From: Stutzerimonas stutzeri
GTDB lineage: Bacteria > Pseudomonadota > Gammaproteobacteria > Pseudomonadales > Pseudomonadaceae
Assembly: GCF_024448695.1 (NCBI RefSeq)
Contig: NZ_JAMOHY010000001.1
Location: 248,001-312,000 of the forward strand
DNA: 64,000 nt
Reading direction: 5' to 3'
In this document: piece by piece, positions 29,097 through 44,518 of the stretch
Numbering within the stretch: the stretch's first letter is position 1
Layout of the letters: the number at the start of each line of letters is the position of its first letter
Notes under the pieces: generated by a model
What the model was told of the DNA's origin: nothing
What the model saw: the letters and a program-made list of their open reading frames with translations, nothing else
Databases searched by the model: none
Position numbers and translations under genes: made by a program

Positions 29097-29330
29097 TCCA
29101 CTCTGACTCCCGCAGCAGTAGCATGATTTCGATGCACTAGACCGCGGGGAAAGATCGAGAGGAGGCAGCCTGCCCAGGGTTGCAGGGAGCACAGGTACCA
29201 ATGCCCTCTATAGCAAGCTCACCGCGCATCAGCACCGACCACATGCTGCGGATTGATACACCGCTATGGCCAATTTTCCGCGATCGACTTCTGCCGTAGA
29301 CTACGTAGCCTACATGCAAGGATGTATGCC

Positions 29331-30113
29331 ATGCCCAGCCTCCCCGCCCGCCTGTTCGCTCTCGGCCTGCTGGCTCTGCCGCTGAACCCACCGCTCTGGG
29401 CTGAAGAGCTGCTACTCGAACCACTTGCAAATACCGCAACGGCGAGCGGAGAACGACAGGTTCGCGGCATACTGCGGGCTCGCGACCACGCCGTGCTCTC
29501 CAGCGAGCTGCCTGGCCGTATCGTTGAAATGCCATTCACCGACGGCCAGGATTTCGCCAAAGGCGACGTTCTGGTGCGCTTCGACTGCAGCGCCTATCAG
29601 GCCCAACTGAACGCCGCGCAAGCCGCGGTGCGCGCCACCCGCGAGGAACTGAACCACAAGAAGCAACTGGCCGCGCTCAACTCCGTCGGTCGCTTTGAAG
29701 TGGCGTTGGCCGAAGCCCGCCAGGCCCAGACCCTGGCAGAGACGCAGGTGTACCAGGTACAGGTAAAACGCTGCAGCGTCGTCGCACCGTTCAGCGGCCG
29801 CGTGGTGCAGCGTCGCGCCCAGCCACACGAAAGCGTCGCCAACGGCGCCCCGCTGCTGGATGTGGTCGACAACGGCACCCTGGAAATCTACCTGCTGGTA
29901 CCGTCCAGCTGGCTGAACCGAATCGAACCGGAACAACCCTTTGAATTCACCCCCGACGAAACCGGCAAGCCCCTTCGGGCCACAGTCAAACGTCTTGGCG
30001 CTCGCATCGACGAAGGTAGCCAGACCCTACTGCTGATCGGCAGCCTACCTGCGGACACCCGCGGCTTGCTGGCCGGCATGAGCGGTACCGCCCAGTTTCA
30101 GGTACCGGAATGA
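29331..30113 (+). CDS. Soluble periplasmic adaptor protein (HlyD/MFP family)
   Basis: 260 residues with a Sec signal peptide (hydrophobic core ALGLLALPL, cleavage after LWA) and no lipobox or membrane anchor. Two lipoyl-like halves (ILRARDHAVLSSELPGRIVE and RCSVVAPFSGRVVQ) flank a short helical hairpin, followed by a beta-barrel. This is a membrane-fusion protein of the kind found in tripartite exporters. AAGG nine bases before ATG 29331 sets the start. It overlaps the next adaptor gene by four bases (ATGA), so it is first in the export operon. Confidence 0.85.
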   Translation: MPSLPARLFALGLLALPLNPPLWAEELLLEPLANTATASGERQVRGILRARDHAVLSSELPGRIVEMPFTDGQDFAKGDVLVRFDCSAYQAQLNAAQAAVRATREELNHKKQLAALNSVGRFEVALAEARQAQTLAETQVYQVQVKRCSVVAPFSGRVVQRRAQPHESVANGAPLLDVVDNGTLEIYLLVPSSWLNRIEPEQPFEFTPDETGKPLRATVKRLGARIDEGSQTLLLIGSLPADTRGLLAGMSGTAQFQVPE

Positions 30114-31429
30114 ACGCACCGCTGCCCGGCACGGCCGAACGCGTCTTCGCCGCTTTTCTCGGGCTGGAGCGACAGGCCCGGAGGGCCGGCAACGTCGAGC
30201 AACTGGCGTTTGCCATGGTCAACGATGGCCAGGCGCTGTTCGGCTTCCGTCATGCCGCGCTACTGATCGCCGGCAAGGTCCAGGCACTGACCGGCATCAG
30301 CGTGGTAGAGCCGAACGCGCCCTTCGTGGCCTTCGTTGAACGTGCGGTCTCGCAGCTGCTCGATCAGGCCCGGTTGAACGACGCTCACAGCGTTGACCCA
30401 GAGCGACTGGATAAGCAGGTTCGCGTCGATTGGCAAAGCCTGTCCGCCAACCAGGCGTACTGGCTACCGCTGAAGAACCGTCAGAACGAGACGTTCGGCG
30501 GACTCTGGCTGGCCCGGGAACAGGCGTTCAGCGAAGCCGAACAATCCTTGCTGAGCCAATTGGCCGACACCTACGCCCATGCTTGGCTGGCGCTGCAGCC
30601 GCGCAAACCCTGGCGTCTGCGCTGGCCGCGGAAAAAGCTGCTGGCGGTTGGCGCAGCGCTATCGCTAATCCTGCTGGTACCGGTACGCCAATCGGTATTG
30701 GCGCCGGCCGAAGTGGTGCCCCAGGGAGGCCGGGTGGTCGCCGCACCGCTGGATGGGGTGATTGCCGAGTTCCTGGTCAAACCCAACCAGCGTGTCGTTG
30801 AGGGAGAGTTGCTGGTGCGCTTCGACGCCACCAGCCTCAAGGCACAGGCGGATGTTGCCGAGCGCGTTCTAGGGGTAGCCGAAGCCGAGCTCAAGGCCAA
30901 CGCCCAGCGGGCCTTTGCGGATGCGGAGTCCAGTTCTCGCATCGATTTGCTCGCGGCACGGGTAGAACAGAAACGCGCCGAGCGCGACTACGCCCGCCAG
31001 TTACTGGCCCGCAGTGAGGTACGCGCCGAGCGCTCCGGCATCACCGTGTTCGCCGATGCCCAGCACCTTACCGGCAAACCGGTACAGACCGGCGAACGGC
31101 TGATGCAGATCGCCGATCCGACCCAGGCGGAACTGCGTATCGAGCTGCCAGTGGGCGATGCCATTGCTCTTCAGCCTGGCGCCGAGGTGGCACTGTTTCT
31201 CGACAGCGATCCGCTCAACCGTCATGACGCGCAACTGGAACGCTCGGCCTACGAGGCCCAGACCACCGCCGCCGGGCAACTGGCCTATCGCCTGGATGCA
31301 AGCTTCGTCGGTGCTCCGCCACGTATCGGCTTGCGCGGCACGGCCAAGTTGTTCGGTGATCGCGCGCCCCTGGCCTATTACCTCATGCGCCGCCCGCTGG
31401 CCGCCGCGCGCCAGAGCTTGGGCTTCTGA
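30110..31429 (+). CDS. Membrane-anchored HlyD-type adaptor with N-terminal GAF-like domain
   Basis: 439 residues. Residues 1-165 look like a cytoplasmic GAF-type domain (LFGFRHAALLIAG.., YWLPLKNRQNETFGGLWLAR, ending FSEAEQSLLSQLADTYAHAW). One membrane helix spans about 176-192. The periplasmic part has split lipoyl halves (VVAAPLDGVIAEFLVKPNQRVVEGELLVRFD and a later SEVRAERSGITVFA) around a coiled hairpin, then a beta-barrel. It is translationally coupled to both neighbours (ATGA and TGATG). The GAF-like part may sense a ligand or contact another component; this is inference. Confidence 0.82.
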   Translation: MNAPLPGTAERVFAAFLGLERQARRAGNVEQLAFAMVNDGQALFGFRHAALLIAGKVQALTGISVVEPNAPFVAFVERAVSQLLDQARLNDAHSVDPERLDKQVRVDWQSLSANQAYWLPLKNRQNETFGGLWLAREQAFSEAEQSLLSQLADTYAHAWLALQPRKPWRLRWPRKKLLAVGAALSLILLVPVRQSVLAPAEVVPQGGRVVAAPLDGVIAEFLVKPNQRVVEGELLVRFDATSLKAQADVAERVLGVAEAELKANAQRAFADAESSSRIDLLAARVEQKRAERDYARQLLARSEVRAERSGITVFADAQHLTGKPVQTGERLMQIADPTQAELRIELPVGDAIALQPGAEVALFLDSDPLNRHDAQLERSAYEAQTTAAGQLAYRLDASFVGAPPRIGLRGTAKLFGDRAPLAYYLMRRPLAAARQSLGF

Positions 31430-33522
31430 TGCTGCCCGCCCTGCGCCCCGATCTGCAGTTATCGCCGGCAGCCCCCGGCCTCGACGGCGCCCCGCAATGG
31501 ACGCTGGCCGATCCCCTGCGTGGCCGCTACTTCAAACTCGGCGCCGCCGCGGTTCGGCTGTTGCGCCATTGGACACTGGGCGAGCCGCAGCGTGTACTAG
31601 CGGCCGCCAATGCCGAACCCGGCCTGCCATTGGGCCAGGCCGAACTCGAAGACATGCTGCGCTTTCTCAGCAGCCATGACCTGATCGCCGCTCTGGACGA
31701 AAACCAGCGCGCCAGCTACGCGATGAAAGCCGCCGCCCATCGCCAAAGCCCATGGAAGCGGGTACTGCATCAATACCTGTTCTTCCGCATTCCGCTGTTG
31801 CGGCCCGATCCCTTCCTCAATCGCGCCTGGCCCGTGCTCGAACGCCACGGTCCCTGGCTGCTGCGCTGGGGCCTGCCGCTGGTCTTTGTACTGGGATTGT
31901 TCCTGGTGATGCGCGATTGGCAGCGCTTTCTGGCCACCTTCCCCCATCTGTTCAGCCTCGGTGGCGCATTGGCCTTCGGCATCGCGCTGACCTTCGCAAA
32001 GCTTTGCCATGAGTTTGGCCACGCCTTCATGGCCAAGCGCGCTGGCTGTCGGGTGCAGAGCATGGGCCTGGCGTTCATGGTGTTGCTGCCGATGTTCTAC
32101 ACCGATGTCAGCGATGCCTGGCGCGTGCGCGACCGCCGCTCACGCCTGCTGATCGGAGCCGGCGGCATACTCGCCGAACTGCTCCTGGCTGTCCTCGCGC
32201 TGCTCGCCTGGTCACTGTTGCCCGACGGCCCGGCGCGTACCGCAGCCTTCATGCTCGCCAGCGCAACCTGGATCACAACCCTGATCATCAATCTCAATCC
32301 CTTCATGCGTTTCGATGGTTACTTTCTGATCAGTGATCTTTGGGGCGTGGACAACCTGCAGAATCGCGCCTTTGCGCTGTGCCGCTGGCGCCTGCGTGAA
32401 GCCCTGTTCGGTTATGGCGAGCCCGCCCCGGAGCCCTGGTCGCCAACCATGCGCAGGCGCCTGCTGGTATGGGGCTACGGCTCCTGGTTATGGCGCGCAA
32501 TCCTGTTCCTCGGCATCGCGCTGGCGGTCTATCACCTGTTCTTCAAAGTACTCGGCATCTTCCTGATGGTGGTTGAGCTGCTGTGGTTCATTGGCCTGCC
32601 CATCTGGCGCGAGCTGGGCGAATGGTGGCAACGCCGTGAACAGGCCGACTCACGCAAGGTGCTGATCACCGGCCTGAGCCTTGGCGCGGTACTGCTTGTG
32701 CTGATCGTGCCCTGGCGCAGCTCGGTGGAAATACCGGCCTTGCTCGAAGCCTCGCGCACCAGCGCCCTGCATGCACCGGTGGCCGCGCGCTTGAAAGCTG
32801 TACACGTGCACGACGGGCAGAACGTGGCAGCCGGCGACCTGCTGCTGGAACTGGACTCGCCCGACCTGGACTCACGCCAGGCCATCGTCCGGCGCGAGAC
32901 CGAAATTCTCCAGCTGCAACTGCGCCGCCAGTCCGCACGCAGCGAAACGGCGGCCGATGCGGGCATCCTCGAACAACGCCTGGCCGAAGCCGTGGCCGAG
33001 TACCGCGGCCTGGCCGCCCAGCGTGAGCGCCTGCAGCTACGCGCACCGCAGGCTGGCGTGGTACGCGACCTGCAACGCGACCTGAGCGCGAATCGCTGGT
33101 TGCATCCTGCCGAATCACTTGCGCGCATCGTAGAGCCCGGGCTGCGCCTGCGCGGCTACCTGGCCGAAGAAAACCTCTGGCGGATCGAAACGGGCAGCGA
33201 AGGACGCTTCATCACTGACGACCCGGCACGCCCGGCGGTGAAAGTGCGCCTGGACGAAGTGGACGCCACCGGCGTCGCCTACTTGGAGTTAGAAGCGCTC
33301 AGCTCCGACCACGGCGGCCCAATCGCCGTACGCCGTGACGCACAGCGCCGCGCGGAACCTGTACAGGCGCAGTACGGGGTACGCCTGGTGCTGCTGAACG
33401 AACTGCCCGCTCCCGCCCAGCCCCTGCGCGGTGTGGTAGTACTGGATGGCGCAGGAGAATCCGTATTGGGCGAAGCCTGGCGCCGGCTGGCGGCACTGGG
33501 CGTGAGGGAAAGCGGCTTTTAA
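31429..33522 (+). CDS. PqqD-like / M50 zinc metalloprotease / HlyD adaptor fusion protein
   Basis: 697 residues. Residues about 22-90 (PQWTLADPLRGRYFKLGAA.., ending LRFLSSHDLI) resemble a PqqD-like winged-helix domain, which in RiPP systems binds leader peptides. Residues 141-430 hold about seven membrane segments with the site-2-protease zinc motif H194-E-F-G-H198 and a second motif N290-P..D296. From 433 on there is a HlyD lipoyl domain (LHAPVAARLKAVHVHDGQNVAAGDLLLELD), a coiled hairpin to about 545 and the second lipoyl half with a beta-barrel. It starts on the stop codon of the previous gene (TGATG). Predicted role: recognition, cleavage or passage of the exported protein encoded next. 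Confidence 0.88.
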   Translation: MLPALRPDLQLSPAAPGLDGAPQWTLADPLRGRYFKLGAAAVRLLRHWTLGEPQRVLAAANAEPGLPLGQAELEDMLRFLSSHDLIAALDENQRASYAMKAAAHRQSPWKRVLHQYLFFRIPLLRPDPFLNRAWPVLERHGPWLLRWGLPLVFVLGLFLVMRDWQRFLATFPHLFSLGGALAFGIALTFAKLCHEFGHAFMAKRAGCRVQSMGLAFMVLLPMFYTDVSDAWRVRDRRSRLLIGAGGILAELLLAVLALLAWSLLPDGPARTAAFMLASATWITTLIINLNPFMRFDGYFLISDLWGVDNLQNRAFALCRWRLREALFGYGEPAPEPWSPTMRRRLLVWGYGSWLWRAILFLGIALAVYHLFFKVLGIFLMVVELLWFIGLPIWRELGEWWQRREQADSRKVLITGLSLGAVLLVLIVPWRSSVEIPALLEASRTSALHAPVAARLKAVHVHDGQNVAAGDLLLELDSPDLDSRQAIVRRETEILQLQLRRQSARSETAADAGILEQRLAEAVAEYRGLAAQRERLQLRAPQAGVVRDLQRDLSANRWLHPAESLARIVEPGLRLRGYLAEENLWRIETGSEGRFITDDPARPAVKVRLDEVDATGVAYLELEALSSDHGGPIAVRRDAQRRAEPVQAQYGVRLVLLNELPAPAQPLRGVVVLDGAGESVLGEAWRRLAALGVRESGF

Positions 33523-33689: not shown

Positions 33690-36600
33690 ATGTTCTGGAA
33701 CAAGAAGAAGACCGTTGCCGCCGGCTCTGCCTCACTGCCTGCACGCTCCCCGCTGGCCTCGGCCCTTGAGCCACGCATGATGTTCGACGGCGCCGTGGCT
33801 GCCACGGTTGCCGACACGGCAATCAGCAGCGATATTGCAAAGACGCAAGCCGCCACCGATACCTCCCTGCACGCCAGCAATCCGGCAACCCCTCCCGTCG
33901 CCACCAGTGCTCAGCGCCAGGAGGTGGTTTTCATCGACAACAAGGTCAATAACCATCAACAGCTGCTGAGCAGCCTGAAGTCCGGCACCGAGGTGGTGCT
34001 TGTTGATGGCAGTCAGAACGGTCTGCAACAGATCGCCGATTACCTTCAGGGCCGCACCGGCATTGACGCCATCCACATACTTTCCCATGGCAGCGCCGGC
34101 ACCCTGCATCTGGGCGACCTTGTCCTGACCGGCGAAAACCTCGACCAACATAGCAAGTTGCTGACAGAAGTGGGCAACGCGCTCAGCAGCGAGGGCGATA
34201 TCCTGCTCTACGGCTGCGACATTGCAGCGGATCGCGCGGGAATGGCCCTGATTAACGGGTTGGCCGCCGCCACCGAGGCGGACGTCATGGCCTCCAGCAA
34301 CGCTACCGGCAGCGGCAGCCATGGCGGCGACTGGATTCTCGAACAAAGCACCGGAGCCATCGAAGCAGCTACCCTGAGCTTCAGTGTAGATACATTGCTG
34401 GCCCTGCCCAATGGCCTGCAGGACGTTACCCCCTCGACTACGCCGGGCAACTTCCTGCCGGGTTTCAACCTGACGGCCAACTATCATATTTTGGGGACCG
34501 ATAACCCGGAAGGCATATACCTGAATATCAACGAAGGTGGGTACGCTGCCCACACAGGTCGTTTTACCGTTAGCGCAGACGAGAGCAACGTTGGCACCTT
34601 CGATCTGACAGCCTTAAGCCTAAGCAGATCCGGATACGGTACCCACGTGTTCATCATCACCGGTTACAAGGCCGACGGCAGCACTATCACCACGACCTTC
34701 GAGCAGTCTGCGAGCGGGAATGTTTCGGGCGGTAACTACACCAGCTTTACCAATATCACTAGGTTCGAAATCGCCTTCAAGGAGAAAGGCGAGCTATTCG
34801 GTGTAAGAAATGTCTTGTTCGACAGCTTCTCAGTTGCCAATGCAACTGCACCGCTGCATCCAAACATCACCAGCGCAACCTATGACGCCAGCACGGGCGT
34901 CCTGTCGGTCGCGGGTACGGACATGCGGGCTGGAGACAATATCAGCACCAGCAAGCTCAGGTTGTTGGGCGAAGGCGGCGCGAGCTATACCCTGACCAGC
35001 GGCACCGTCCAGGCCAGCAGCGCCACAGGCTTCTCGGTCGTCTTGAACACCGCTGACCGGGCGGCCATCGGTCTGATCTTCAACAGAAACGGCAGCAGCT
35101 CCACAGGTGGCAGTACTTTCGGCCTGGCTGCTGCCTCCGGTTGGGATGCCAGCCGGGCCTCGGCGCCCGACGAGACCGGCAACGTCGTTACGGTAAGCAA
35201 CGTCCCGGTACCCACCATCTCCAGCTCAACCTACGACGCAGCCACCGGCACGCTGACGGTGAGCGGATCCGGCTTCACCCAGTTAAGTGGCGCCAGTAAC
35301 GACATCATCGCCAGCAAGTTCACTGTCACGGGTCAGGCTGGCGCCACCTATACCCTGACCGATACGGCAAATGTCGAGATCACCAGCGGCACCAGCTTCA
35401 CCCTCACGCTCAGCGCCACAGACCGCAATGCATTGCAGGGGCTGCTAAACCGCAACGGCACCAGTTCAACCGGTGGCACCACCTACAACCTGGCCGCTGC
35501 AGAGGATTGGTTGGCAGGTGCGGATGCTGCCGCCGTGGTGATTACTGATATGACGGGCAACGGTATCACCGTCAGCAACGCGAACAGTGCGCCTGTGGCG
35601 AACAATGACAGTTATTCACTCAACGAAGACAGTCCGTTGACAGTGAGCTCGGTGCTCACCAACGATACGGATGCTGACGGCAATGCGCTCAGTGCCTCGC
35701 TCGTCGCAGGTCCGGCCCACGGCACCCTGACGTTCAGCGACAACGGGACATTTACCTACACACCGAGCGCCAACTACTACGGCACAGACTCCTTCACCTA
35801 TCGTGCTCACGATGGGCTGGCCAGCTCAAACGTTGCCACCGTTACGCTCACGATCACTGCCGTGAACGATGCACCAGTACTCACGACATCCGGCGGCGGC
35901 AGCACTTTTACCGAAAACGGCAGCGCGGCGGTGATCGACAGTGGCCTGACGCTCATCGACGTGGACAACGCCACCCTAGCGTCTGCCACCGCCGCCATCA
36001 CCGGCAACTTCGCCAGCGGCCAGGATCTACTCCTCTTCGTCAATGACGGCAGCAGCATGGGCAACATCAGCGCCAGCTATGACGCCGGCACCGGAGTCCT
36101 CACGCTCACCTCGGCGGGCGCCAGCGCCACCCTGGCGCAATGGCAGGCCGCGCTGCGCAGCATCACCTACAGCAATGGCTCGGACGCCCCCAGCACAGCC
36201 ACGCGCACCATCAGTTTCCGCGTCAACGATGGCACTGCCGACAGCAACGTCGCGACCACAGTGCTCAACGTCACTGCCGTGAACGACGCACCGCAGATCA
36301 CTGCACCGCCCATCCTGAGCGTGACCGAAGACCAGGCCAGCGCTCTGACCGGCATCAGTTTCACCGACCCCGACGCAGCCGCCAGCACCGTCGTCGCCAC
36401 CTTCTCGGTGTCCAGCGGTAGCCTTGCCGCCACCAGTGGCGGCGCAGTGACCGTGGGCGGCACCAGCAGCGCGCTGACCCTCACCGGCAGCCTGGCCAAC
36501 ATCAATGCCTACATCGCCGCCAGCAACCTGTCCTTCACCACTGCAGCCAATGCCACCAGTGCCGTGACTCTGACCGTAACAATCAACGATGGTGGCAACA

Positions 36601-39600
36601 CCGGCAACGGTGGCACCCTGACCGACAGCAAGACCGCCACCCTGCAGGTCACCGCGATCAACGATGCGCCCACGGTAGCCAACCCGATAGCAGACCAGAG
36701 CGCCACCGAAGATCAGCCCTTGAACTTCCAGTTCGCCGCCAACACCTTTGCCGACGTCGAGGGCGACACACTCACCTACAGCGCCCAACTGGCCGGCGGC
36801 AGCCCACTGCCCGCCTGGCTCAGCTTCGACCCCGTTACCCGCACCTTCTCCGGTAACCCGACCAATGGCGATGTCGGCCCGCTGAGCATCCAAGTCACAG
36901 CGGACGACGGCCAAGGCGGCACGGTGACCGACACCTTCGATATCCTGGTGACCAATACCAACGACGCACCCAGCGTCGCCAACCCGATATCTGACCAGAA
37001 TGCCACCGAAGATGCGGCCTTCAGCTTCCAGTTCGCCTCCAACACTTTTAGCGATATGGATGCCGGCGATACTCTGAGCTACAGCGCACAATTAGTCGGC
37101 GGCGCATTGCCGGCCTGGCTCAGCTTCGATCCCACCACCCGCACCTTCTCCGGCACCCCGACCACTGGCGATGCCGGCACGCTCAGCATTAACGTCATCG
37201 CCGATGACGGCAACGGTGGTAGCGTCAGTGACACGTTCAGCCTGACCGTCAACAGCCCGCCGCGCGTGACCGCAGTAACGTCCAGCGCCTCCGATGGCAG
37301 CTACAGGACCGGTGAAACCCTCACCATCAGCATCACCTTCAATCAGGCTGTGACAGTCAATACCGCTGGCGGCTCGCCCACACTACTGCTGGAAACCGGC
37401 GCACTTGATCGCAATGCTTCCTATGTCAGCGGTTCCGGAACTGACACGCTGACTTTCAGCTATACCGTGCAGGCCGGTGACATCAGCGCCGATCTGAATT
37501 ACCAATCTACGACGGCACTTGCTCTAAATGGTGCCAGCCTTACAAATGCCGCCGGCAATGCAGCTGCCGCCCTCACTCTACCCAGCCTCGGCAGCCTGAA
37601 CTCGCTTGCTGGTCAGCACGCCCTGACGATTGACGGCGTACGCCCGACGGCCGCAATCACGCTAGCCGACACGACCCTGTCCATTGGCGAAACTACCACC
37701 GTCACCATCACCTTCAGCGAAGCGGTCAGCGGGCTGACCATCGCAGACTTCACCGTGGCCAACGGTGCTTTGAGCAACCTGATCACTTCAGACAACATCA
37801 TCTGGACCGCCACCTTCACGCCGGATGCCAATGTCGAAAGCACCGACAACCTGATCACCCTGGACAACACCGGCTACAGCGATGCCGCAGGCAACGCCGG
37901 CACCGGCACCACCGACTCGAACAACTACGCCATCGACACTCAACGCCCGACCGCGACCATAGTGGTAAGCGACACTGCGCTGGCCATCGGTGAAGCCAGC
38001 GCCGTGACCATCACCTTCAATGAAGCCGTGACGGGTCTGAGCCTGGCAGACTTCAGCGTGGCCAGCGGCACCCTGAGCAACCTGAGCACCGCGGACAACA
38101 TCACCTGGACGGCAACCCTGACGCCAAACGGCAACATTACCGACAGCAGCAACGTCATCACCCTGAACAATACCAGCGTACAGGATGCCGCCGGTAACGC
38201 CGGCAGCGGAACCACTGCCTCGAACAACTACGCCATCGACGCCCAGCGCCCGACCGCGACCATCCAGCTGAGCGACACTGCGCTGGCTGCCGGCGAGACG
38301 GCGACGGTGACCATCACCTTTAACGAAGCGGTGACGGGTCTAATGCTGGCCGACCTCAGCGCAACCAATGGCTCCCTCAGCGGGCTCGGCAGTAATGATG
38401 GCGGCATCACCTGGACAGCCACCCTGACGCCAGCCGCCAACGCCACCGCGAGCAGCAACCTGATCACCCTGAACAACGCCGCGGTGCAGGACGCAGCAGG
38501 CAATGCCGGTATTGGCGTCACGCAATCGAGCAACTACGTCGTCGACACCGTGGTTCCGCTCGTCAGCAGTGTCAGCGTACCCGCCGGGGTGCAGTACAAC
38601 GCCGGCGACACCCTGACCTTCGTGGTCAACGCCAGCGAAGCCGTTCTGGTCAACGGCACGCCAAGGCTGGCACTGGACATCGGCGGCAGCACGGTCTACG
38701 CCGACTACGTAGCAGGCTCTGGCACCACTACCCTGGTCTTCCAGTACAGCCTGCAGCCCGGCCTGAACGATACCGATGGCATCACCGTGGCCGGCCTGCA
38801 GGACAATGGTGGCAGCCTGCGCGATGCGACCGGCAATGCCATGAACCTGACCCTGAACAACGTCGGAGACACCTCCGGCGTGCGGGTCGACACCATCGTG
38901 CCCAGTGCGACCATTGCGCTGGACCCGTCCAGCAGTGCCACCAACGTGCGCTACACCGTGACCTTCAGCGAAGACGTCAGCGGCGTCGACCTGTCCGACT
39001 TCAGCCTGGTCACCAGCCGCAATGCCAGTGGCATTCTGGGCAACCTGGTGCAGATCGATGCACGCACTTACCAGATCACCATTACCAACATAATCGGAAG
39101 CGGCAGCCTGGCCCTGGCACTCAACAGCAGCGGCACCGGCATCAGCGACTCGGCTGGCAACATGCTGGCTGACAGCCTGGTCGGCCAGCCCTATACCCTC
39201 TCCCAGGGGGACGGCGATCCGGAGTTCCGTGCCAACCCGACGCCCATCGTCCCCACGACGCCTAGTGCACCCCCTCAACCCACCGTGCCCAGTGCGCCAC
39301 CCTCCAGCACCACCTCGCCACTGTTGCCGCCGCCATTGTTCGAGCAACCGACTCTCGGTAGCGGCGTACCCACGGTGGGCAACATCTTCATCAATAACGG
39401 TGCGCTGGCGCCCAGCTTCATCGCCCAGGTCTTTGCCAGCAGCGACAGCGGTGCCGGCAATGGCAGCGGTATCGGTTTCCTCGGCTTTGGTGGGAATGAC
39501 GGCGGCGTGTTCGGTACCAGCAGTTTCTCCAGCGTGTTCAGCAAGGACGTACCGCTGGAGTCAGGCGATATCCAGCTTCGCTGGGGTAATTCCATCAGCA

Positions 39601-39740
39601 ATGGCTTGAGCGGGGGAGAGATTCTAGGAGCACCGACGCTGAGCCAGCAGTTGCAGGAGATAGGTGAAAGCGAACAACGCCAGATAAAAGATCTGGCCTG
39701 GGCATTGGGCAAAATGCCACTGCAAATGCCACAAGCGTAA
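33690..39740 (+). CDS. Giant LEPR-motif/DUF4347 repeat protein, putative exported adhesin
   Basis: 2016 residues. Residues 26-35 are LEPRMMFDGA (LEPR-XLL type motif) after a basic N-terminus with no Sec signal. About 78-235 is a DUF4347 domain with HILSHG (His133) and LLYGCD (Cys176). About 240-385 is a beta domain, then two 118-residue repeats to 630, a tandem-95 cadherin-like domain (632-728), further Ig-like domains, two dystroglycan/cadherin-like repeats of 100 residues (996, 1096), three Ig-like repeats of 101 (1318, 1419, 1520), two more beta domains, a Pro-rich linker (about 1849-1890) and a Gly/Ser-rich tail. No RTX nonapeptides or beta-barrel anchor. AGAGGG before ATG 33690. Likely the substrate of the neighbouring exporter, for surface adhesion or biofilm. 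Confidence 0.85.
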   Translation: MFWNKKKTVAAGSASLPARSPLASALEPRMMFDGAVAATVADTAISSDIAKTQAATDTSLHASNPATPPVATSAQRQEVVFIDNKVNNHQQLLSSLKSGTEVVLVDGSQNGLQQIADYLQGRTGIDAIHILSHGSAGTLHLGDLVLTGENLDQHSKLLTEVGNALSSEGDILLYGCDIAADRAGMALINGLAAATEADVMASSNATGSGSHGGDWILEQSTGAIEAATLSFSVDTLLALPNGLQDVTPSTTPGNFLPGFNLTANYHILGTDNPEGIYLNINEGGYAAHTGRFTVSADESNVGTFDLTALSLSRSGYGTHVFIITGYKADGSTITTTFEQSASGNVSGGNYTSFTNITRFEIAFKEKGELFGVRNVLFDSFSVANATAPLHPNITSATYDASTGVLSVAGTDMRAGDNISTSKLRLLGEGGASYTLTSGTVQASSATGFSVVLNTADRAAIGLIFNRNGSSSTGGSTFGLAAASGWDASRASAPDETGNVVTVSNVPVPTISSSTYDAATGTLTVSGSGFTQLSGASNDIIASKFTVTGQAGATYTLTDTANVEITSGTSFTLTLSATDRNALQGLLNRNGTSSTGGTTYNLAAAEDWLAGADAAAVVITDMTGNGITVSNANSAPVANNDSYSLNEDSPLTVSSVLTNDTDADGNALSASLVAGPAHGTLTFSDNGTFTYTPSANYYGTDSFTYRAHDGLASSNVATVTLTITAVNDAPVLTTSGGGSTFTENGSAAVIDSGLTLIDVDNATLASATAAITGNFASGQDLLLFVNDGSSMGNISASYDAGTGVLTLTSAGASATLAQWQAALRSITYSNGSDAPSTATRTISFRVNDGTADSNVATTVLNVTAVNDAPQITAPPILSVTEDQASALTGISFTDPDAAASTVVATFSVSSGSLAATSGGAVTVGGTSSALTLTGSLANINAYIAASNLSFTTAANATSAVTLTVTINDGGNTGNGGTLTDSKTATLQVTAINDAPTVANPIADQSATEDQPLNFQFAANTFADVEGDTLTYSAQLAGGSPLPAWLSFDPVTRTFSGNPTNGDVGPLSIQVTADDGQGGTVTDTFDILVTNTNDAPSVANPISDQNATEDAAFSFQFASNTFSDMDAGDTLSYSAQLVGGALPAWLSFDPTTRTFSGTPTTGDAGTLSINVIADDGNGGSVSDTFSLTVNSPPRVTAVTSSASDGSYRTGETLTISITFNQAVTVNTAGGSPTLLLETGALDRNASYVSGSGTDTLTFSYTVQAGDISADLNYQSTTALALNGASLTNAAGNAAAALTLPSLGSLNSLAGQHALTIDGVRPTAAITLADTTLSIGETTTVTITFSEAVSGLTIADFTVANGALSNLITSDNIIWTATFTPDANVESTDNLITLDNTGYSDAAGNAGTGTTDSNNYAIDTQRPTATIVVSDTALAIGEASAVTITFNEAVTGLSLADFSVASGTLSNLSTADNITWTATLTPNGNITDSSNVITLNNTSVQDAAGNAGSGTTASNNYAIDAQRPTATIQLSDTALAAGETATVTITFNEAVTGLMLADLSATNGSLSGLGSNDGGITWTATLTPAANATASSNLITLNNAAVQDAAGNAGIGVTQSSNYVVDTVVPLVSSVSVPAGVQYNAGDTLTFVVNASEAVLVNGTPRLALDIGGSTVYADYVAGSGTTTLVFQYSLQPGLNDTDGITVAGLQDNGGSLRDATGNAMNLTLNNVGDTSGVRVDTIVPSATIALDPSSSATNVRYTVTFSEDVSGVDLSDFSLVTSRNASGILGNLVQIDARTYQITITNIIGSGSLALALNSSGTGISDSAGNMLADSLVGQPYTLSQGDGDPEFRANPTPIVPTTPSAPPQPTVPSAPPSSTTSPLLPPPLFEQPTLGSGVPTVGNIFINNGALAPSFIAQVFASSDSGAGNGSGIGFLGFGGNDGGVFGTSSFSSVFSKDVPLESGDIQLRWGNSISNGLSGGEILGAPTLSQQLQEIGESEQRQIKDLAWALGKMPLQMPQA
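36675..37254 (+). repeat. Two 300-bp coding repeats (dystroglycan-type cadherin-like)
   Basis: Units begin at 36675 and 36975 (VANPIADQ / VANPISDQ) with an exact 300-bp period and high nucleotide similarity. Confidence 0.9.
37641..38552 (+). repeat. Three 303-306-bp coding repeats (Ig-like)
   Basis: Units begin at 37641, 37944 and 38247 (each RPTA.I..); the third has three extra bases. Conserved blocks are VTITF.EAV.GL and LITLNN. Confidence 0.9.
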
Positions 39741-39793
39741 TCGACATAACAGATAAGAATCGAATGAGTGCCGTACCAGGGGGCGGCCCAAGG

Positions 39794-41278
39794 ATGAGCA
39801 AAGCAGCGAAGTTTTTCAGCATCAGTGTACTGGCGTTAGCCGTTGGCGGTTGCGCAGTCACCAGCCAACCCATCGACCGCAGCGCCAGCGAACAACGCGC
39901 CCAGACCGATTTGCAGAACATGTTCAAGGATCAGGAACCGCTCAGCGGCTCGCTGACTCTGCATGAGGCCATGGCCCGCGCGGTGAAGTACAACCTCGAA
40001 GCGCGCCTGAAGGTCATGGAGGAAGCCATGGCCCAGCGTCAGGTCGACCTGGCAACCTTCGATATGCTGCCACGTATGGCCCTCTCCGCCGGGTATGCCG
40101 GGCGCAACAACATCAGTGCCTCCAGCAGCCAGAGCATCGAAACCGGCACCCAGTCGCTCGAACCCTCCACCTCACAGGATCGTGACCGCGGCGTTGCCGA
40201 CCTGACCATGGTCTGGAACGTATTGGACTTCGGCGTCAGCTACGTCAGCGCCAAACAGCAGGGCGACCAGCGCCTGATTGTGCAGGAACGTCGGCGCAAG
40301 GTGGTTCACACCATCACCCAGGACGTGCGTTCCGCCTACTGGCGCGCAGTGGCCGCCGATCGCCTGCTGTCTCAGATCGACAGCCTCATGGCGCGCGTTG
40401 CCCAGGCCCGCGACAATAGCCAGCGCCTCAGTGAGCAGCGTATTGGCGATCCTATTCAGGCCTTGAGCTACCAGCGTGCCCTCATCGAAGCCACTCGCCA
40501 GCTGGAAGAACAGCGGCGGGCCCTGTCGCTGGCCAAGACCGAACTGGCGACGCTGATCAACCTGCCCTTAGGCACCAACGTTGAACTGGCTCCCGAGGAG
40601 GGCTATCAGGTACCGGAACTCAGTGTCGAGCTAGGCAAACTCGAGGACGAAGCCTTGGCCAGCCGCCCCGAGCTGCGCGAGCAGGACTACCAGGCACGTA
40701 TCAGCGCCGCTGAAACGCGCAAGGCCATGCTGCGCCTGCTGCCTGGTCTGGAGTTTTCCGCCGGCGGTCATTACGACAGCAACTCTTTCCTGGTCAACCA
40801 AAGCTGGGCCGACTACGGCGTGAAGGTCACCTGGAACCTCTTCAACGTGCTTTCAGCCCCAGCCGCCATCGATGTGGCCAAGGCTGGCCAAGAGGTCGCC
40901 GATGCGCGTCGCCAAGCCATGTCGATGGCAATCCTCGCCCAATTGCATGTAGCCAACGCCAACTTCCGCGAGGCCCAGCGCCAATTCCAGACCAGCCAGC
41001 AACTGGCCGGGCTGGATGAGCAGATCGTCGAACAGTTGCGCAACCGCTATCAGGCCCAAGGTATTGGAGAGCTGGAATTGATTCAGGGGGAACTGAATAC
41101 CCTGCATGCCGACCTACGCCGCGATCTGGCCTATGCAGAGCTGCGCAACAGTTATGGGCAGCTTTTTGCCAGCGCTGGCCTCGATCCTCTGCCGCAAAAC
41201 CTGGCCTCCGATCGCCTGCAGGATATCGCCGCAGCCTTGGCTGAACGCGAAGCACAATGGCAAGCGGGACAACTGTAA
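39794..41278 (+). CDS. TolC-family outer-membrane channel lipoprotein
   Basis: 494 residues. A lipoprotein signal with lipobox VGGC, then two outer-membrane efflux-protein repeats with long coiled-coil helices (LHEAMARAVKYNLEARLKVMEE, VHTITQDVRSAYWRAVAADRL, RLSEQRIGDPIQALSYQRAL, TELATLINLPLG). This forms the outer-membrane exit duct of tripartite exporters. ATG 39794 is chosen because it begins the signal peptide and GGGGG lies about ten bases upstream; ATG 39764 is an alternative. It closes the plus-strand cluster, 53 bp after the giant gene, and may also serve the convergent MacAB-like system. Confidence 0.9.
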   Translation: MSKAAKFFSISVLALAVGGCAVTSQPIDRSASEQRAQTDLQNMFKDQEPLSGSLTLHEAMARAVKYNLEARLKVMEEAMAQRQVDLATFDMLPRMALSAGYAGRNNISASSSQSIETGTQSLEPSTSQDRDRGVADLTMVWNVLDFGVSYVSAKQQGDQRLIVQERRRKVVHTITQDVRSAYWRAVAADRLLSQIDSLMARVAQARDNSQRLSEQRIGDPIQALSYQRALIEATRQLEEQRRALSLAKTELATLINLPLGTNVELAPEEGYQVPELSVELGKLEDEALASRPELREQDYQARISAAETRKAMLRLLPGLEFSAGGHYDSNSFLVNQSWADYGVKVTWNLFNVLSAPAAIDVAKAGQEVADARRQAMSMAILAQLHVANANFREAQRQFQTSQQLAGLDEQIVEQLRNRYQAQGIGELELIQGELNTLHADLRRDLAYAELRNSYGQLFASAGLDPLPQNLASDRLQDIAAALAEREAQWQAGQL

Positions 41279-41418: not shown

Positions 41419-42123
41419 TCAAGCCGTCTGCGTATCCCTCACAATGCTTCCGTCCACCAGCTCGATACTGCGTCGGCAACTGCCCGACAGCCGTGGATCA
41501 TGGGTCACCACCAGCACGGCGCAGCCGAATTCCCGGTTGATCTCGCGGAACAGCTCGAACACCTGCTCAGCCGTGCGGGTATCCAGGTTGCCGGTCGGCT
41601 CGTCGGCCAGCAGCAGGGCTGGCCGCGTAACCAGTGCGCGGGCAATCGCAACCCGCTGTTGCTGACCGCCGGACAACTGGCCGGCGCGCTTGCAGCCAAA
41701 GCCCTCCAGCCCGACCTGGGCCAGCAGTCGCTCGGCCAGCTGCACATCCTCGGCGCCTGGTTTGCCGCGGCGGATCATCAGTGGCATCAGTACGTTGTCG
41801 AGGACGCTGAACGCCGAGATCAGGTGATGGAACTGAAACACGAAACCGATGGTTTCGTTGCGCAGCCGGGTCCGGGTTTCGTCATCCAGCGTGCGCGTCG
41901 CCCGGCCCATCAGGTACAGCTCGCCAGCGCTGGGCGAGTCGAGCAGGCCGATGATATTCAGCAGCGTGCTCTTGCCCGAGCCGCTGGGGCCGATCAATGC
42001 GGTCAGCTCGCCACTCGACACGCACATGTCGATGCCCCGCAGGACTTCCTGCTCCTGAGGCGTGCCAGGGTTGTAGACCTTGCGCAGCCCTTTCAGGCGC
42101 AGCACTTCATGAACGTCAGACAT
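41419..42123 (-). CDS. MacB/LolD-type ABC ATPase
   Basis: 234 residues. Walker [14 protein letters not shown]-loop FVFQFHHLI, signature [15 protein letters not shown], Walker [13 protein letters not shown] and H-loop VTHDPRL. The ILG-like segment ([16 protein letters not shown]) and overall match belong to the LolD/MacB/FtsE branch, which drives mechanotransmission-type permeases without moving substrate through the membrane domain itself. It overlaps the permease gene by eight bases; the order adaptor-permease-ATPase is one operon. Confidence 0.93.
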
Positions 42124-43336
42124 AACGGATCGCCACTGCCGGATCGTAACGGGCCGCGCGACGGGCGGGCGCGACGGCGGCCAGCACGCCGGTCAGCGTG
42201 GCCACCAGCATGGCCGACAGCAGCAGGCCCGACGAGACCTCGATCACGAACAGCCTCGGCCCGAACAGATTGAACACCTGGATCAACCCCCAACCCACCA
42301 GTCCGCCAAGGGCCGAACCGGCCAGCCCGAGCAGCCCGCCTTGCAGCAGAAACACGCGCATCACCTGGCTGCGCGGGCTGCCCATGGCGCGAAGGATGCC
42401 GATCTCCCGGGTGCGTTGCACGACGCTGACCGCCAGCACGCTGGCGATGCCGAACGCCACGGAAAGCCCGACGAATATGCGGATCATCTCGGTGGTCATG
42501 CTCTGGGAACGCAAGGCATTGAGCAGTTGGCCATTGGTGGCCATCCAGCTTTCCGCCTGCATGCCGGTGAGACGGGCCATGCGCTCGGCAACCTTCTCGG
42601 CGGCAAAAATGTCCTCGACGGTCAGGTCGATCTGCGTCACCCCGCCGGGCAGATCGAGCAGAATCTGCGCCTGACGCAGGTCCAGATAGACATAGCGGGC
42701 ATCCAGCTCGCGCACGCCCAGCTCGAAGATGCCGGCCACCCGCACCACCCGCTCACGCCCCTCTCCACCATCCAGTCGCAGCTTGTCCCCGACGCTCAGC
42801 CCCAGTTCACGGGCCAGCTCGGCGCCGAGGGCCACCTGGTCGCCTTCGACAACGAAACGGCCTGCCACCAGATCACGGGCTACGGGCACAATGCGTTGAT
42901 AACGCTCCGGATCGATACCCATCAGCGCGATAGAAGCGCGCGCCTGGCCGCGCCGGGCAATCGCCGGTCCCGTGGCCAGCGGCGACACTGCCCGCACGCC
43001 GGGCTGTCCATCAAGCAAGTCGCGCAGCGCCTGCCAGTTGCTCAGCGAACGCAGCCGCTGGGCGCGCGGGCTGTGCAGCACCAGTGCGACGGCGTTGTCC
43101 GACGCCGGGAGTACGCGGTTGACCTCGTCGGGCATTTCGATCTTCAAATGTGCCTGGGTGCCAAGGGTGCGCTCAATGACATTGCTCTGCAGGCCGCTGA
43201 TCAGGGCCGTGATGAACACGATCACCGCCGAACCCACGGCGATGCCTACCATGATCAGCAGCGTTTGCAGCCGGTTGTCGAGCAGAAAGGCCAGAGCGAC
43301 CTTCCACTCGAGCCAGAGGGCGTTCAGCCAGCGCAT
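42116..43336 (-). CDS. FtsX/MacB-type ABC permease
   Basis: 406 residues, four membrane helices: one N-terminal (LQTLLIMVGIAVGSAVIVFITAL), a large periplasmic MacB-PCD domain, then three helices near the C-terminus (IFVGLSVAFGIASVLAVSVVQRTREIGILRAMG.., LLQGGLLGLAGSALGGLVGWGL, LLLSAMLVATLTGVLAAVAPARRAARYDP). This topology is that of MacB/LolC. The periplasmic domain should contact the adaptor encoded just upstream. Substrate unknown. Confidence 0.92.
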   Translation of the reverse strand: MRWLNALWLEWKVALAFLLDNRLQTLLIMVGIAVGSAVIVFITALISGLQSNVIERTLGTQAHLKIEMPDEVNRVLPASDNAVALVLHSPRAQRLRSLSNWQALRDLLDGQPGVRAVSPLATGPAIARRGQARASIALMGIDPERYQRIVPVARDLVAGRFVVEGDQVALGAELARELGLSVGDKLRLDGGEGRERVVRVAGIFELGVRELDARYVYLDLRQAQILLDLPGGVTQIDLTVEDIFAAEKVAERMARLTGMQAESWMATNGQLLNALRSQSMTTEMIRIFVGLSVAFGIASVLAVSVVQRTREIGILRAMGSPRSQVMRVFLLQGGLLGLAGSALGGLVGWGLIQVFNLFGPRLFVIEVSSGLLLSAMLVATLTGVLAAVAPARRAARYDPAVAIRYV

Positions 43337-43339
43337 GGC

Positions 43340-44518
43340 TTACTCCGCACCCGGCAACGGCAGTCGTTGAAAGCGGATGCTCTGGTCGGGCTCAGCGACG
43401 ACGTTCAATACCCGGTCGCCCGGCGCCAGGCCCTCGCGCACTTCGCTCAGCGCGTCGCTGCGCAGGCCCAGACGCACCCGCGTGCGGCTGACGGTGCCGT
43501 CATCGGCGACACGCAGGACCTGGGCCTGATCGCCATCGCGGGCCAGCAGGGCATCGTTGCCAATTACCAGTGCGCGCTCCAAGCGTGCGGTTTCGATATT
43601 CACCGACACACTCATGCCCTGACGCAGGAAATCCGCCTCGTCGAGCAGCTCCAGGTGCACATCCAGCGTCCCCTGAGCCGGATTGACGGCGGGAGCCAGA
43701 TAGCTGACACGCGCTTTGAGCACACGCTCAGGCCAGGCATCGGGAATCACCCAGGCCGGCTGATCGAGGGCGACTGCACCCAGGTTCTTTTCATCCAGCG
43801 GCAGCAGAATCTCACGGCTGTCGTCGCGGGCAATCTCCAAGAGCACATCGCCTGGGCGCACCAGATCTCCCGGCTCCACATTGCGGGTCTGCACAGTGCC
43901 GGCGTGCGCGGCATGGATGCGCGTGCGTGACAGCGCAATGCGGGCCTGCTCGACCCGCTGGCGGGCCTGATGGGCTTCGGCGCCATCAGCTACCAGCGCG
44001 TCGCGCTGCAGCCGGGCGCGGTCGCGGCCCACGCGGGCAGTGGTTTCCACCTGGCGCGCCTGTTCCAGCGCCTCGGCAGAGAGCAACCCGCGCGCATGCA
44101 CGGTCTCGCGGCGCTCCCGCTCGCGCACGGCCTGTTCCAGCCGGCTTTGCGCATCGCGCAGCTGCACCTCGGCCTGGGGCCGGCTGGAATCGGTCAACTG
44201 GCGCAGAGCGGCTTCGGCCTCACGCAGCCGCGCCTGCTGTTCGTCATCGCGCAGCTCGACCAGCAGGTCACCCATTTCGACACGATCGCCTTCACGCACG
44301 AGGCGGGCCTTGACCACCCCGGTGAGTTCGCTACCGACCCGCGCCAGGGACTTGCTGGACACCTCACCGCTGGCCACTACCCGCTGCACCAGAGAGCGTT
44401 CCTCAAGTTGATAGCCGCTCAGCAACGGCCCTTGCCAGGGTCGCCAGAACCACAGCAGCACAGCTAACACGACCAGGCCGAGCAGCAGCCGGAGCAGCGT
44501 CTTGGAGGCAATCCGCAC
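43340..44518 (-). CDS. MacA-like periplasmic adaptor
   Basis: 392 residues from GTG 44518 with one N-terminal membrane helix (LLRLLLGLVVLAVLLWFW), so it is anchored in the inner membrane. Lipoyl halves (SSKSLARVGSELTGVVKARLVREGDRVEMGDLLVEL and RTRIHAAHAGTVQTRNVEPGDLV) flank a long helical hairpin. It probably joins the permease to an outer-membrane TolC-like protein. No such gene is in this operon; the nearest is the convergent one at 39794-41278. Three bases separate it from the permease gene. Confidence 0.9.
   Translation of the reverse strand: MRIASKTLLRLLLGLVVLAVLLWFWRPWQGPLLSGYQLEERSLVQRVVASGEVSSKSLARVGSELTGVVKARLVREGDRVEMGDLLVELRDDEQQARLREAEAALRQLTDSSRPQAEVQLRDAQSRLEQAVRERERRETVHARGLLSAEALEQARQVETTARVGRDRARLQRDALVADGAEAHQARQRVEQARIALSRTRIHAAHAGTVQTRNVEPGDLVRPGDVLLEIARDDSREILLPLDEKNLGAVALDQPAWVIPDAWPERVLKARVSYLAPAVNPAQGTLDVHLELLDEADFLRQGMSVSVNIETARLERALVIGNDALLARDGDQAQVLRVADDGTVSRTRVRLGLRSDALSEVREGLAPGDRVLNVVAEPDQSIRFQRLPLPGAE

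Follow-up and report, generated by a model that had tools for sequence, protein, structure and literature searches.

The open reading frame at positions 31429..33522 (plus strand) of the window, a stretch of 64,000 nucleotides from Stutzerimonas stutzeri (contig NZ_JAMOHY010000001.1, positions 248,001 to 312,000), encodes a fusion protein of 697 amino acids. Pfam, NCBIfam, conservation and structure matches confirm that it combines three domains: a fold of the RiPP recognition element (RRE)/PqqD type (RiPP, ribosomally synthesized and post-translationally modified peptide), an M50 site-2 protease and a HlyD adaptor. The gene is the third of five on one strand, which encode, in order, a HlyD adaptor, a GAF-HlyD protein, the fusion, a giant protein with DUF4347 (a domain of unknown function) and immunoglobulin-like (Ig) repeats, and a TolC-family channel; the first three genes overlap. 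The first (29253..30113, plus) is a HlyD/resistance-nodulation-division (RND)-type periplasmic adaptor (Pfam HlyD_3, E 1.2e-15; NCBIfam RND_mfp, 2.2e-35, above the cut-off), whose true start is probably the ATG at 29331, yielding a signal-peptide-like N-terminus. The second (30110..31429, plus) has a GAF-like domain, a single membrane segment near residue 180 according to hydropathy, and a periplasmic adaptor (HlyD_3, 2.5e-11). Its match to Pfam GAF_2 (9.4e-5) is under the cut-off, and a distant homologue passes GAF (4.1e-10). The TolC-family outer-membrane channel lies at 39764..41278 (plus; Pfam OEP, 1.8e-41). The host genome holds a single copy of the fusion, the sole other match being to the adaptor region encoded by the HlyD gene that lies two genes upstream.

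The closest named relatives of the fusion, in Pseudomonas (P. chengduensis, P. composti and P. mendocina), share 90-96% identity with it, and further relatives reach down to about 21%. Database labels describe these homologues merely as 'HlyD adaptor' or 'site-2 protease'. The N-terminal domain (residues 1-88; 31429..31692, plus), which the initial annotation had read as PqqD-like, was modelled with AlphaFold over residues 1-105 using 41 aligned sequences. The model (predicted local distance difference test, pLDDT, 83.8) has strands at 10-14, 23-28 and 33-37, followed by helices at 39-46, 53-62 and 70-82. Its top Foldseek match in the PDB is TbiB1 with a leader peptide (5v1u; probability 1.00, E 1.3e-3), no match falling below 1e-3. 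In VIA, the model matches the leader-bound lasso RREs 6jx3 (lasso B1, Z 9.9) and 5v1v (Z 9.7) and the RRE structures of PqqD (5sxy, Z 7.9), MccB (Z 7.7) and CteB (Z 7.5), and the first clearly unrelated fold in the ranking is PhoB (Z 3.6). Two proteins not recognised as RRE-bearing, 8hkr (Z 8.7) and GdmN (Z 7.6), match too, and therefore the RRE fold by itself is no proof of leader binding. Pfam PqqD is found at E<=1 in 9 of 42 diverse homologues (best 9.5e-9), the window protein not being among the nine; one homologue, L230, exceeds the gathering score (24.1 vs 23.4), and NCBI annotates some plasmid homologues as 'PqqD family'. The model, its structure matches and these homologues support the RRE/PqqD assignment, and binding of a leader is predicted from the fold.

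Conservation in the protease core was assessed in an alignment of 52 sequences, comprising the window protein and 51 relatives picked from 121 loci. Pfam places M50 at residues 183-267 (E 5.8e-8; 32.8 vs 27.2). H194, E195 and H198 of the zinc motif HEFGH (residues 194-198; 32008..32022, plus) are each present in 52/52 sequences, as are K191 and the residues N288, P291 and D296 of the second active-site motif, N288-L-N-P291-F-M-R-F-D296 (32290..32316, plus). The protein has both the HExxH and the downstream Asn-Pro...Asp of M50 site-2 proteases, and hydropathy places them in membrane segments. The initial annotation had built the active site from HEFGH and N290-P..D296. HEFGH, P291 and D296 stand, but the invariant asparagine is N288, position 290 being Asn in just 35 of the 52 sequences and Ser in 15. 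The invariance of the catalytic residues argues for catalysis, and the site-2 protease is predicted to be active.

The protease also has a characterised relative. The NCBIfam model of the daptide intramembrane metalloprotease (NF041824) covers residues 31-388 of the fusion (E 5e-44) with a score of 150.9 bits, below the curated cut-off of 300, and is matched by 42/42 diverse fusion sequences. In hhalign, the 42-sequence profile aligns with Streptomyces MpaP along residues 2-478 of the window protein (E 2.6e-31). As judged from these profiles, the RRE and M50 part of the fusion shares homology with MpaP. Excerpts of PMC10036551 assign removal of the daptide leader to MpaP, which joins an RRE with a site-2 protease. 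This homology agrees with the remark of the initial annotation that M50 relatives occur in peptide maturation. The fusion and MpaP/DapP share the N-terminal RRE joined to M50, and an LE(P) core is found in the leader of both systems. They differ in that the fusion has a full HlyD adaptor, a probable giant-protein substrate and an operon without daptide genes. Related daptide material is contained in excerpts of PMC12338566.

The C-terminal part of the fusion (about residues 440-697; 32746..33519, plus) resembles the adaptor structures of MacA, EmrA and MexA in Foldseek. With the Pfam HlyD/lipoyl parts at 441-614, the lipoyl, hairpin and barrel domains of a full HlyD C-terminus are all present, as had been proposed. 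AlphaFold modelled the full-length protein poorly (pLDDT 64; predicted template modelling score 0.34), and this model served the adaptor match and the helix order alone. Reading of a hydropathy scan gives seven hydrophobic segments, at about 143-161, 171-191, 240-258, 271-289, 354-372, 374-392 and 411-429. Therefore, going by the hydropathy scan alone, the RRE would lie on the cytoplasmic side and the adaptor on the periplasmic side.

The gene that follows the fusion (33690..39740, plus) encodes the presumed substrate, so regarded from adjacency and co-occurrence: a protein of 2016 amino acids with an LExR leader, DUF4347 and Big_12/cadherin/He_PIG repeats (Pfam). Its N-terminus reads MFWNKKK...ALEPRMMFDGA, with LEPR from residue 26 and the leader motif LEPRMMF at residues 26-32 (33765..33785, plus). 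Judged by its residues, the leader motif is the LEPR-XLL motif of NCBIfam (NF012209), the window copy lying below the cut-off. The presumed cargo bears both this named cargo family and DUF4347 (PF14252; residues 79-233; 33924..34388, plus; Pfam 2.4e-51). The giants of Escherichia coli and Kosakonia begin with LESRQLFDGA and LEPRMLFDGA, respectively. The peak hydropathy over 15 residues is 1.19 in the giant's leader vs 1.78 at the N-terminus of the first adaptor, which resembles a signal peptide, and the median over 95 unique leader regions is 1.19. All 132 aligned DUF4347 domains have H133, within SHG, and C176, within YGC. We take the pair to fit the dyad pattern of the caspase-like cysteine proteases of clan CD, which suggests a caspase-like dyad; the domain may have enzymatic activity and perhaps process itself. 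Among the open frames of this analysis, the longest with a LEPR-XLL match spans 19,427 amino acids (G061:C115:112865).

According to excerpts of PMC10036551, daptide precursors carry ELExMEAP and their product begins after Pro; one modification step, which proceeds via another RRE protein, MpaB, requires L(-7) and M(-4). A Streptomyces plasmid annotated with mpaP encodes the precursors QELEPVQAP-GWA and QELEALEAP-GW. In a short alignment made by eye, LE on LE, ELEPVQAP stands over ALEPRMMF and the daptide cut falls between F32 and D33 of the giant, which we predict as the cut site. A Vibrio giant of about 8000 amino acids with LEPR-XLL and RTX parts is likened to secreted toxins in excerpts of PMC10868602, and DUF4347 or LEPR-XLL appears in a protein list in excerpts of PMC12322963; these excerpts give no export route.

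The association of the fusion with such proteins was examined across a sample of 398 genomes of the phylum, a fusion being counted at E<1e-30. Some match to the fusion at E<=1e-3 occurs in 205 of the 398, mostly to the adaptor alone, and the partial cases G118, G334, G288 and G177 were left uncounted. The fusion is present in 88 genomes, LEPR-XLL in 40 and DUF4347 in 94. Fusions occur in 39 of the 40 LEPR genomes (Fisher p 3e-28) and in 74 of the 94 DUF4347 genomes (p 7e-47), p-values that are overstated because the genomes are related. Conversely, LEPR or DUF4347 is found in 84/88 fusion genomes, and in 86/88 when G219 and G296, with an LExR giant upstream of the fusion, are added. At the level of genera, the fusion is present in 23/23 LEPR genera, against 45/212 genera overall. 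Within 12 mixed genera, LEPR or DUF4347 occurs in 28/29 genomes with the fusion vs 7/44 without it (permutation p 3e-6), and LEPR alone in 13/29 vs 1/44 (p 1.3e-5). This within-genus test includes the fusion-free DUF4347 genomes G071, G274, G189 and G161, and other fusion-free genomes only if listed in the fusion search.

The leader motif before DUF4347 follows the same distribution. A first pattern, [LIVM][EDQ]PR, was present in 92/110 frames from fusion genomes vs 1/30 from fusion-free genomes. The final pattern, [LMIV]ExRx with two hydrophobic positions and [DSN][GA], was set after seeing the data and is found in 105/110 vs 2/30 frames; its E and R are constant by construction and are not evidence. 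The 110 frames contain repeats and frames fetched by the LEPR search, and 96 unique frames remain without them, 75 of these being from close relatives of the window. Among the unique frames, the motif precedes DUF4347 in 92/96 (75/75 from the Pseudomonas group and 17/21 others). The two positive frames from fusion-free genomes are both from G189 (57% complete), and the 30 frames of this control stem from 29 loci; one of the 30 loci fetched, L216 of G096, gave none, and these 30 are part of 38 places. The LExR motif tracks the fusion rather than the DUF4347 domain.

A more distant form of the fusion, the sister type, was found in the loci L120-L131 and on the alphaproteobacterial plasmids L230 and L232. 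A SecA-like ATPase adjoins the sister-type fusion in 9 of 12 loci, one of them fragmented. In four cases scanned with Pfam, this protein of 638-673 amino acids has SecA_DEAD, preprotein-binding and P-loop domains. A Pontibrevibacter plasmid has genes for, in this order, a LEPR-XLL giant, DUF3467, GAF-HlyD, the fusion, a SecA-like protein and HlyD. The small DUF3467 protein is seen in some sister-type operons (L230, 11620-11898; L232, L122, L124, L128 and L130) and its gene adjoins GAF-HlyD in L230 and L232; a role as a chaperone would be a guess.

The fusion type covaries with the residue that follows the presumed cut, seven positions beyond the L of LExR. This residue is Asp in 75/75 frames of the Pseudomonas group and in the 13 neighbourhoods of distant window-type fusions that were read, and loci of the LEPR search on contigs with window-type fusions add two further Asp and one Ser (L173). 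Near sister-type fusions (same contig or locus, <=60 kb, one operon not being implied), 15 of 16 LEPR proteins have Ser at this position and one has Asn. At first, with two candidates per genome scored, ten genomes had Ser-type LEPR proteins with window-type fusions alone. A sister-type query then retrieved a sister-type fusion from each of the ten and from G101 (313-594 bits; 11 Ser-type proteins). In four Asp-type genomes and the window genome, the same query gave 122-155 bits, corresponding to the window-type fusions, and no sister-type fusion. This check, which might have gone the other way, removes a result that had stood against the broader reading of a separate class of secretion system, given below. 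Six genomes (G101, G117, G133, G018, G030 and G061) each have 5 to 9 fusion matches and several LExR proteins, as if pairs of exporter and giant had multiplied as sets.

We propose that the open reading frame probably encodes the inner-membrane component of an exporter for giant LExR (LEPR-XLL) proteins, where it would serve both processing and docking. The cytoplasmic RRE would capture the LExR leader at the N-terminus of the DUF4347/Ig giant encoded by the next gene, and the intramembrane site-2 protease would trim this leader where the motif ends (LEPRMMF|DGA). The fused periplasmic adaptor and the two other adaptors of the operon would bridge the inner membrane to TolC, enabling the giant to exit the cell. 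The initial annotation had suggested an order of recognition, cleavage and hand-over to the export duct. This order is supported, being consistent with the topology, with the operon and with the leader-like LExR motif that the adjacent giant carries, and the likely substrate is the 2016-residue protein rather than a small peptide.

Several observations weigh against this proposal. Pfam detects no ATP-binding cassette (ABC), RND or major facilitator superfamily (MFS) pump among the five operon genes, which leaves the energy source unexplained. The window operon has no SecA-like gene and the window genome a single SecA (963-residue frame); the SecA-like protein of the sister type is shorter than this SecA and is not encoded at all sister-type loci. 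Over residues 15-95 of the fusion, structural similarity to PqqD and RRE folds is present, but the Pfam PqqD profile (PF05402) is silent on the window sequence at E<=1. Pairwise BLASTP against MpaP aligns the protease core alone (185-338, 37.6%, E 1e-22). The LEPR-XLL match of the giant (residues 25-42) reaches 11.5 bits, short of the cut-off of 17, and 3 of the 95 leader regions exceed a peak hydropathy of 1.8, hydrophobic enough to be Sec-like. Four unique frames from fusion genomes are without the motif: L134 is at a locus edge, L147 reads LEQRIAFDAA and falls outside the pattern, and L188 and L190 seem truly motif-less. No LExR giant was seen beside the fusion in G057 and G203, and the LEPR genome G212 (86% complete) is without a fusion. 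DUF4347 occurs without a fusion in 20 of its 94 genomes, where the domain is independent of the system. Finally, the Ser-type LEPR protein of L173 lies 24 kb from a window-type fusion; its genome, G101, holds a sister-type fusion elsewhere.

Recognition without cleavage is an unlikely explanation of the same data, in which the RRE recruits LExR proteins and the protease clears stalled giants or acts as a membrane scaffold. Classic site-2 protease substrates are membrane-embedded and the giants are not, which would favor such a role. However, the active-site residues are invariant in 52 sequences, and the residue that follows the motif varies with the fusion type. The homology to MpaP, with its assigned leader removal (excerpts of PMC10036551), likewise points to cleavage.

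The proposed exporter resembles type I secretion in its periplasmic adaptors and TolC, its large repeat cargo and a leader peptidase built into the exporter. Peptidase-containing ABC exporters of type I secretion cleave leaders. The differences lie in an operon without an ABC gene and in the signal, an LExR leader at the N-terminus where type I cargo has a C-terminal signal or a GG leader. An ordinary type I system with its own ABC transporter was rejected because the operon encodes none, and the pump that defines type I secretion or tripartite RND/MFS efflux is absent from it. A BapP-type adhesin system was rejected as well, since excerpts of PMC12153261 describe ABC genes and a predicted Sec signal for the BapP system. 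It is improbable, though worth weighing, that an ABC transporter acts in trans and the fusion only trims the leader. The candidate would be the MacB-like ATPase/permease at 41419-43336 (minus strand), part of a MacAB-like set downstream of TolC (Pfam ABC_tran, MacB_PCD/FtsX and HlyD). With one MacB-like query, an ABC ATPase was located 5 kb or less from the fusion at 5 of the 121 loci and never between it and the adaptor genes, and the sister type has a SecA-like ATPase. No ABC gene is annotated within about 14 kb of the operons on the E. coli and Kosakonia plasmids, for which the PLSDB table is incomplete; an MFS transporter is located 7.5 kb from the Kosakonia operon.

We regard it as very unlikely that a small RiPP-like peptide nearby is the true substrate and the giant a chance neighbour. 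The closest characterised relative does handle small peptides, but the daptide models MpaB/C/D/M are unmatched by the five operon proteins, to which the scan was limited, and the co-occurrence and motif results indicate giants. An RseP-like signalling protease that cuts an anti-sigma factor was rejected as scarcely credible, the similarity to RseP models being weak (E 0.07 and 0.12), the fusion having no PDZ domain in Pfam but a fused RRE and adaptor, and the operon containing TolC.

The recurrence of the gene set around the fusion supports the exporter proposed above. The 80 Pseudomonas-group loci include GAF-HlyD in 79, HlyD in 79, the DUF4347 substrate in 73 and TolC in 17, and the 28 distant window-type loci include GAF-HlyD in 26, HlyD in 25, TolC in 22 and DUF4347 in 9, counts in which many loci end before the remaining operon genes. 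TolC is upstream of the fusion in 19 of the 22 distant loci that have it. The same five-gene set, with LExR giants, is carried by E. coli and Kosakonia plasmids. DNA nearly identical to the E. coli fusion gene is found in 24 of 5426 complete E. coli genomes, and 21 of its 25 places are on plasmids.

A few further features of these loci were observed. Beyond TolC in the window, the MacAB-like set (ABC ATPase, MacB/FtsX permease and HlyD) occupies 41419-44518 on the minus strand. In the E. coli IncF plasmid of strain MS 115-1 (L228/L229), the giant of the five-gene set has 4459 amino acids and starts near LESRQLFDGA. Extra genes lie between the fusion and the giant or after the fusion in L003 (12861-16329) and L016 (12109-16403); by eye, they encode acetyltransferase-like, sulfotransferase-like and tail-collar-like proteins, the last of about 210 amino acids. 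In L227 (16128-18235), the extra gene is annotated as 'tail fiber protein'.

The individual parts of the system are known. We found no open-licence PubMed Central paper that treats peptidase M50 and HlyD together, nor one that adds PqqD or SecA, in a search that left subscription journals and most preprints uncovered. The combination of an adaptor-TolC exporter with RiPP-type leader processing is new to the open-licence literature searched. A broader reading, which we put forward tentatively, is a separate class of secretion system across Pseudomonadota and plasmids. In this class, an RRE-protease-adaptor would replace the ABC, RND or MFS pump, the cleavable signal would be LExR, and export would be driven by SecA. 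Each of the two fusion types would recognise its own leader, with Asp or Ser after the cut. The dedicated SecA-like ATPase, likely the motor of the sister type, would drive that type, and housekeeping SecA would, as a guess, drive the window type. Planctomycete giants presumably bear a similar LExRxLL motif, and planctomycetes are absent among the plasmid matches listed for the fusion. If the separate-class reading holds, the planctomycete LExRxLL would be the same export signal.

The analysis links LEPR-XLL, a named but unexplained motif, with DUF4347, a domain of unknown function, and with a protease fusion that has so far been loosely labelled. If the proposal is true, some very large bacterial proteins would have a route of export and a signal that can be cleaved off, and RiPP-style leader recognition would extend from small peptides to giant adhesin-like proteins. 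An adaptor and TolC exporter that operates without a pump would challenge the usual definition of tripartite systems.

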